This document shows positions 10,010-60,921 of a stretch of 64,000 bases of DNA, one piece after another. The notes below the pieces were generated by a model. That model worked only from the letters and a program-made list of their open reading frames with translations, had not been told where the DNA came from and made no database searches. The stretch lies in contig NC_021505.1 of the NCBI RefSeq assembly GCF_000412675.1, forward strand, positions 62,001 through 126,000, given 5' to 3'. A program made the position numbers and the translations under genes. The stretch is from Pseudomonas putida NBRC 14164 (GTDB lineage Bacteria > Pseudomonadota > Gammaproteobacteria > Pseudomonadales > Pseudomonadaceae). Position 1 is the first letter of the stretch; each line of letters opens with the position of its first letter.

Positions 10010-10160
10010 ACCCCTGCAGATTTTTCTGATTTTGTCTCGAATGGTTGTCCGGTTTGAGGATTGGGAAATATCCTACGCCCCGCGTCCCCTGCCATCACCT
10101 GTTCAGTAGGAACCAGTGTCCTTAGGCTCTATCCGTCGCCGAATAACTTGGCGATCGGGT

Positions 10161-10277
10161 GTGGTAGCCCGGATGCGTTTTTTTTCCATGACAGTCTATG
10201 GCGGCTGTGCGTGGGAGGCTTTCGAGCCTGCCTGGATTGGAAAATGCCCGGGTCTACCACCTCGCGTACAGTCGCCA
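10161..10277 (+). ncRNA. Candidate structured leader RNA upstream of the DUF3077-like gene
   Basis: Three helices can be drawn. P1: 10199-10211 with 10265-10277, 13 bp including two G-U pairs. P2, inside P1: AGGCT-TTCG-AGCCT at 10216-10229, a UUCG tetraloop hairpin. P0: GTGGTAGCCCGG at 10161-10172 with the complementary segment at 10248-10260, 12 bp with a one-base bulge. P0 and P1 interlock, so they either form a pseudoknot or exclude each other. The element ends 52 nt before the DUF3077-like start codon. Function is inferred from structure and position only. Confidence 0.5.
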
Positions 10278-10328
10278 CCCATTCACGTGGTAGTGATGGT
10301 TGGCGGCCCTGAGGAGCATTTTCCAGTG

Positions 10329-10643
10329 ATGAAGAAACTAGTGCCCGATCCACCCCTACCCCGCACCTCCGCCCGCCCCTTCGGCCGCTGCGACGCCGGC
10401 CATGACCCGCTCTTCACCGTCAACCCGAACATTTCCGCCGAGGACGCTCTCGTCCACGTAGCCCTGTACCTGCGCAGCGCCTACGAAACCGGCTACAAAG
10501 CCCTGGACTACATGCGCGAAGAGGGCCGTGGCATGTTCTGGTCGAACCTGCATGCGATTGAAATGGCGGAGGGTGTGATTGAGGCAATACTCGATGGCAT
10601 CGAGTCGACCCCTCCACCGACAAACCGGCCCTCACAGGCATAG
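10329..10643 (+). CDS. DUF3077-like small protein
   Basis: A 104-residue protein of unknown function. It has a proline-rich basic start and then a helical region (ISAEDALVHVALYLRSAYET, then MAEGVIEAILDG) that resembles the DUF3077 family found in many copies in Pseudomonas genomes. No signal peptide or membrane segment. The ATG at 10329 is 12 nt from GAGGAG, a rather long spacing; an upstream GTG/ATG at about 10290-10296 is possible. It stands alone between REP elements, and the candidate structured RNA lies just upstream, suggesting post-transcriptional control. Confidence 0.65.
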   Translation: MKKLVPDPPLPRTSARPFGRCDAGHDPLFTVNPNISAEDALVHVALYLRSAYETGYKALDYMREEGRGMFWSNLHAIEMAEGVIEAILDGIESTPPPTNRPSQA

Positions 10644-60754: not shown

Positions 60755-60884
60755 GAATGGCTGGTGAAGCCCTTCGATGCTCCTATGTTGTGTTAAGTGT
60801 TGGCAGATATCTGGACCCCGCCCTAGCGGTCCGGACTTGGACCCCGAACTTCCCCCTCCCCATACGAAGTCCGGGGTTTTTTTT
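60755..60884 (+). ncRNA. ersA: Probable ErsA-type regulatory small RNA
   Basis: The polA-engB gap is the Spot 42 position of enterobacteria and the ErsA position of Pseudomonas. Here it ends in a strong terminator: stem accccgaacttc/gaagtccggggt (60841-60852 with 60866-60877) and eight T. The loop is C-rich (cccctccccat), resembling the seed by which ErsA base-pairs with mRNAs such as algC in P. aeruginosa. A second hairpin, ggaccccgccctagcggtcc, precedes it. Length about 130 nt agrees with the reported ErsA size (132 nt, recalled). Confidence 0.7.
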
Positions 60885-60921
60885 GCCCGCAATTTGACAG
60901 GCAGCCGCTGCTGCTCCCTAT

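Follow-up and report, generated by a model that had tools for sequence, protein, structure and literature searches.

The window, a stretch of 64,000 nucleotides from the chromosome of Pseudomonas putida NBRC 14164, contains a compact succession of RNA elements in front of a small gene, which an earlier note had assigned to positions 10161-10277 and described as a possible pseudoknot or switching RNA. The whole feature is larger than this segment, as it extends to the start codon of the gene at 10329, and it is composed of the following parts:

10100-10128, + strand: promoter-like pair TGTTCA - 17 nt - TAGGCT, weak with 6/12 consensus matches, at a position relative to a1 as found at other loci
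10122-10175, + strand: c4-a1b1 leader (RF03163, 'a1, b1 targets of C4 antisense RNA'), 43.4 bits, below the cut-off of 46.7
10161-10167, + strand: target a1, GUGGUAG, complementary to a' in 7/7 positions
10175-10181, + strand: target b1, GCGUUUU, weak, 7 pairs with 10241-10247 including one G-U, -4.3 kcal/mol
10194-10282, + strand: C4 antisense RNA (RF01695), 67.2 bits, above the cut-off of 45, fold z -3.8
10239-10247, + strand: antisense segment b', GGAAAAUGC, in the loop of P3, complementary to b2 in 9/9 positions
10254-10260, + strand: antisense segment a', CUACCAC, in the junction between P3 and P1, complementary to a1 and a2, 7/7 each
10287-10293, + strand: target a2, GUGGUAG, complementary to a' in 7/7 positions
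10310-10316, + strand: Shine-Dalgarno-like UGAGGAG, read from the sequence
10316-10324, + strand: target b2, GCAUUUUCC, from the last Shine-Dalgarno base to just before the start codon, complementary to b' in 9/9 positions
10329-10643, + strand: DUF3077/DUF6124-like gene of 104 amino acids (PF19619, 22.6 of 27 bits; PF11275, 19.7 of 21 bits)

Its sequence identifies the feature as a C4 antisense RNA together with its targets. The properties that define the C4 family are reflected in the score of the RF01695 covariance model, which exceeds its gathering cut-off, in a three-stem fold with compensatory changes, although the consensus excludes P3, and in the full complementarity of a' and b' to their two targets, a2 and b2, around the beginning of the downstream gene. 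The c4-a1b1 leader misses the gathering score of its own model, and the complementarity of a1 is nonetheless complete. Elsewhere in the window, a Pseudomon-1/ErsA sRNA is found at 60777-60892 with 143.5 bits.

The three helices that had been drawn by hand can all be read in the sequence. These are the outer stem P1 (10199-10211/10265-10277) with 13 bp and two G-U pairs, an AGGCU-UUCG-AGCCU hairpin located inside this stem, and a 12-bp pairing between 10161-10172 and 10248-10260 with one bulged base (10253). In the Rfam alignment and the computed fold, P1 extends inwards to 17 pairs, and a further hairpin that was absent from the initial list, P3, carries the main antisense loop. The helix crossing P1 exists as a pairing, but its nature is that of an antisense:target duplex, in which a', together with the 3' strand of P3, binds a1 and the bases following it. 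The predicted energy of the 10194-10282 fold is -43.6 kcal/mol (z -3.8), which was attained in none of 200 dinucleotide shuffles, and when 49 C4 copies are aligned (41 from the Pseudomonas genome G049, seven from the window's own genome and the window itself), 14 of 22 consensus pairs show changes on both sides that preserve the pair. Both observations show that the fold is not a product of chance; together with the C4 match they bear out the assignment as a structured RNA, and the alignment provides the covariance analysis that had been suggested as a check. The covarying pairs belong to P1 and P2, whereas P3, with its variable loop length, is missing from the consensus fold.

The downstream gene, which contains an alternative GTG start immediately 5' of its ATG, is related to DUF3077 and DUF6124 by profile scores that remain formally below the curated cut-offs of both families. 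The pairing partner at the gene start had been missed. The DUF3077/DUF6124-like character of the gene sets it apart from icd-ant, whose control is confined to P1/P7 and lies outside the Rfam definition of the family. A model of the encoded protein contains two helices (pLDDT 77.3, pTM 0.60), which in a fold search matched nothing beyond generic helical structures (best E 0.33). A search by sequence for a relative of solved structure returned none, PADLOC and NCBIfam gave no match to the protein, and the best value in PHROGs was E 0.46. Two DUF3077 relatives match phrog_36471, a phage family of unknown function (E 1.4e-19 and 5.3e-10), and the gene family is therefore not confined to cellular genomes.

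The suggestion of similar text upstream of other small Pseudomonas genes has proven correct, since further C4 copies with a1b1 leaders are found at such genes. The chromosome of 6.16 Mb that contains the window harbors eight C4 above the cut-off and a ninth below it at 36.3 bits; a tenth match of 17.4 bits is at chance level, and five of the 14 control genomes likewise give matches at this loose threshold, all of them below the cut-off. All nine are preceded by a c4-a1b1 match (above the cut-off in seven, with the one in the window below), and for seven of the nine a manual comparison identified a DUF3077 match, of ten in the genome, on the same strand within 600 bp downstream. At four loci (L005, L007, L008 and L009) the first frame of 80-87 residues starts with M.K.VPDPP and is followed by the DUF3077 match, which by order alone recalls the location of icd before ant in P1. 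No C4 is found in four stretches with unlinked DUF matches of the same genome and in six of G049 (10.6 bits at best), and some members of the gene family therefore live without a C4.

In a survey of 79 Pseudomonas genomes, C4 is present in 73 at E 0.001 and above the cut-off in 72, with at least 1265 matches overall and 20 or more in 30 genomes, where the high counts per genome are lower bounds because 47 candidates were scored in each (at least 47 in G049, for which a deeper search revealed 55 C4, 52 of them above the cut-off). The number of C4 follows the summed number of DUF6124 and DUF3077 matches with a Spearman coefficient of 0.94 and a slope of 0.97, uncorrected for genome size and phylogeny; none of the genomes has such genes but lacks C4, and 11 contain one to four C4 but no such genes. 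This linkage is pronounced in G049, where a DUF6124/DUF3077 gene is located within 600 bp of 40 of the 55 C4, compared to a mean of 0.1 and a maximum of 2 in 2000 trials of random placement, and where a C4 accompanies 40 of the 47 domain matches, with one gene counted under both families. Among the other 15 C4 of this genome, downstream frames were scanned for ten, of which three encode Bro-N antirepressor-like proteins (L077:1227-1739, L048:1643-2161 and L097:1143-1649) and seven contain no Pfam family above the cut-off. The Bro-N-like protein of L077 starts with the same K.TPNPP motif as DUF6124 proteins.

A survey of the class under stricter filters revealed C4 in 6 of 140 genomes, including the own genome, with one to three copies in each of the other five. 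Seven C4 from these five genomes outside Pseudomonas (L219-L225) fit their own leaders and precede various small frames, with runs of 7-9 for b' and of 7 or 8 for a' in six cases, compared to 4 in L219. In viral contigs, C4 is located next to DUF6124 at all 20 loci scanned of 27 found, many of which are located near the end of a contig and might represent flanking host DNA; a tblastn search with one DUF6124 protein against 50,697 phage records yielded a single match. The C4-DUF units are thus mainly chromosomal yet not foreign to phages.

Relatives of the window gene in named genomes amount to 149, of which the best 80 were kept. Among these 80, 78 are titled Pseudomonas, and the closest are from P. 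juntendi, Pseudomonas sp. S37, a Pseudomonas bin and P. hunanensis. With the model built from the 49 copies, a C4 adjoins the gene start on the same strand in 77 of the 80, the exceptions being L149 and L209 with partial matches and L216 with none; in L173 the C4 overlaps the matched frame, so that no leader remains. The Rfam model was concordant in all 20 relatives scanned. Loop and gene start co-vary between these loci, with GGGAUUC facing GAAUCCC in L141 and AUAACUCGC facing GCGAGUUAU in L185, compared to GGAAAAUGC and GCAUUUUCC in the window. Additional C4 that lack an own start region precede a complete unit at L190:893-1069, L192:896-1071, L182:1126-1212 and L183:1134-1220; they share a', or nearly so, with that unit, differ from it in b' and are possibly orphans. 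Two complete units in tandem are found at L157:1366-2369, one with the loop of the window and the other with a different loop and a matching start region.

To quantify the relation between antisense segments and targets, the longest Watson-Crick run with the own leader and with all other leaders was determined for each copy, both for its P3 loop and for its P3-P1 junction. For all 55 copies of G049, runs between the loop and the Shine-Dalgarno zone amount to 6.84 for own and 4.52 for permuted leaders (z 18.4) and those between the junction and the a2 zone to 6.93 and 4.01 (z 20.6), with equivalent values upstream for the junction (6.95 vs 4.59, z 18.0) and the loop (6.25 vs 4.48, z 14.7). With reversed bases the same four runs, in this order, are 4.82, 4.00, 4.67 and 4.38, where the reversed-loop control is not entirely flat (own 4.82 vs 4.50, z 2.6). 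In 42 of 55 own pairs, compared to 25 of 2970 foreign ones, both downstream runs are at least six long; in the remaining 13 copies one or both of them are shorter. Summed over both runs, 40 of the 55 copies fit their own target strictly best, and 47 fit no other target better. The loops of the 55 copies are all different, and their junctions comprise 32 cores. In the own genome, both runs reach six in 7 of 9 own and 0 of 72 foreign pairs, although the pairing of the loop upstream (b1) is no better than chance (z 1.0). In the named relatives, a set of 78 including the window reduced to 55 distinct loci, both do so in 44 of 55 own and 182 of 2970 foreign pairs, with a strictly best own target in 21 of 55, the a' segment being common to orthologues.

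In an earlier energy matrix of whole antisense regions in G049, the own target had been best in only 15 of 55 cases for the downstream site and in 25 of 55 for the upstream site; with the P3 hairpin alone it was best in 4 and 5 of 55, a weakness likely caused by the conserved GC-rich stem of P3. The narrowing to loop and junction was chosen after this matrix and the G049 loci had been inspected, and identical cuts were subsequently applied to the own-genome, named, P1 and class sets. When the narrowed test is based on energies, it performs less well than with run lengths, the own target being best in 4 of 55 cases for pairing of the junction to a2. The run lengths suggest that the two short segments act as an address, by which the copies of one chromosome would mostly fit their own gene best.

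A search for sigma-70-like sites in the 58 of 60 leaders that contain a1 provided a mean score of 6.67 of 12 compared to 4.82 after shuffling; scores of at least 8 are reached in six leaders (1.9 when shuffled), all with the end of the -10 element 29-33 nt before a1. The site in the window scores 6/12, and a stricter promoter scan of the window identified no promoter-like site at this locus. In 37 of 58 leaders and in 53 of 76, a CCTAC element recurs at a fixed distance of about 87-90 nt from a1, which places it upstream of the promoter-like site (about 10071-10077 in the window); this may result from shared descent.

Family membership, structure, covariation in P1 and P2, complementarity to a1, a2 and b2, preference for the own target and linkage to the gene are all evident from the sequences. 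We consider it highly probable that these features amount to a chromosomal C4 antisense module, which would most likely autoregulate one small gene. For this unit we infer transcription, cleavage, repression and a role of a1b1 in the following manner. A single transcript would begin just before a1b1 and proceed through C4 into the DUF3077/DUF6124-like gene. C4 would adopt its three-stem form and then be excised, by analogy with P1 through RNase P, whereupon a' (7 nt) would pair with a2 and b' (9 nt) with b2 in the gene leader, thereby covering the space between the Shine-Dalgarno sequence and the start codon and blocking translation, either of the same transcript in cis or of further RNA copies. 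The upstream a1b1 region would bind to the same antisense face and thus act as a competitor that holds C4 inactive in the uncut transcript.

Another account of the same pairings, which we consider improbable, would assign the regulation mainly to a leader that switches in cis, with the gene turned on by pairing of a1b1 with C4 and off by the C4 fold, and with a short a1b1 RNA activating in trans as described for IsrK, an experimentally tested precedent (PMC4825925). The idea of exclusive states had been raised at the outset and is reflected in competing pairings: two such folds are plausible since the uncut leader of the window favors the a1b1:C4 pairing with -97.0 over the C4 fold with -85.1 kcal/mol. 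The same fold is of lowest energy in 20 of 52 loci of G049, 1 of 8 of the own genome and 21 of 78 named loci, compared to 1, 0 and 2 upon exchange of the leader for that of another locus; it is nevertheless a minority in all three sets and thus no rule across loci. A terminator-like hairpin followed by a T run at 10155-10172 (one site in the window scan with 0.4 expected) would be suited to release a short RNA, but an equivalent hairpin between a1b1 and C4 is present in just 6 of 52 loci of G049 (shuffled mean 0.6, maximum 2), 0 of 9 of the own genome and 1 of 78 named loci, which is too rare for a general terminator. Similarly, the isrK model (RF01394) matches the window, although with 25.8 bits far below its cut-off of 50.

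A further alternative, which appears very unlikely to us, views C4 as an expressed leftover or superimmunity RNA, whose useful target would be the antirepressor mRNA of an incoming phage instead of the neighboring gene. It draws on the control of antirepressor synthesis by C4 in P1, on the three C4 of G049 that precede Bro-N antirepressor-like genes and on the C4 next to DUF6124 in viral contigs. A role of this kind has been proposed for Acinetobacter (PMC5320573). In contrast, the joint change of loop and neighboring start across paralogues and relatives requires selection on the pairing with the neighbor. Finally, a riboswitch, attenuator or stable pseudoknot devoid of an antisense role, as initially proposed in light of the crossing helices, is practically ruled out by the C4 family match and by the 55 differing loops of G049, which follow the neighboring start, unlike a conserved ligand pocket.

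A wider interpretation, plausible yet short of probable, would be that a switch of phage immunity has been adapted in Pseudomonas to form dozens of antisense switches throughout the genome, each with its own address and tied to one gene of a large family of small proteins (DUF6124/DUF3077 and others including Bro-N-like ones), so that every gene could be switched singly, and possibly in a bistable manner via a1b1, for variegated expression or phage-related control. C4 is a regular part of most sampled Pseudomonas genomes, alongside a large gene family of unknown function, and DUF6124/DUF3077 genes thereby gain a first regulatory handle. Tens of natural antisense:target pairs per cell also offer a test bed for the sequence that is needed to keep antisense RNAs apart.

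Both C4 and c4-a1b1 have been listed for Proteobacteria and phages (Weinberg 2010, PMC2864571), including Pseudomonadales, as reported in PMC5320573. The latter source describes many chromosomal C4-like Group 1 sRNAs with variable target loops in Acinetobacter baumannii, which are expressed and apparently processed; their targets are left open there, whereas in the window the target can be read off the adjacent gene. In the IsrK-orf45-anrP region of the Salmonella prophage Gifsy-1, the upstream segment pairs with a downstream segment as in the window, and two folds of the leader decide on translation (PMC4825925). The differences are that a short upstream RNA activates in trans in Gifsy-1 and that the isrK model matches the window far below its cut-off. 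The CI RNA of phage P4, likened by description only, is an antisense RNA released by processing, with targets (seqA and seqC) on either side of it in the same transcript, yet is described as acting through transcription termination (PMC4825925). In the literature searched, with subscription papers mostly outside its scope and hence no proof of absence, the term DUF6124 is absent, DUF3077 appears in a single paper, on furfural tolerance, and a Pseudomonas C4 array on DUF genes was not found. While C4 itself is known and already predicted in Pseudomonadales, the array of many individually addressed copies tied to DUF6124/DUF3077 appears new relative to this literature.

C4 has been described mainly for the immunity of the phages P1 and P7, where in P1 it is cut from the transcript by RNase P. 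The order a1, b1, C4, a2, b2 and gene is the same in the window and in P1, whose record annotates a1, b1, c4, a2, b2, icd and ant1 with a sites of 7 nt and b sites of 8 nt. The a sites are thus of equal length in both, compared to a b' of 9 nt in the window, and the same script detects 7 pairs for a2 and 8 for b2 in P1. Both share the three-stem fold, and the start codon is located 47 nt past the C4 match in P1 and 46 nt in the window. However, in P1 and P7 C4 precedes icd-ant, whereas in the window it precedes a DUF3077/DUF6124-like gene, as one of many copies per Pseudomonas chromosome.
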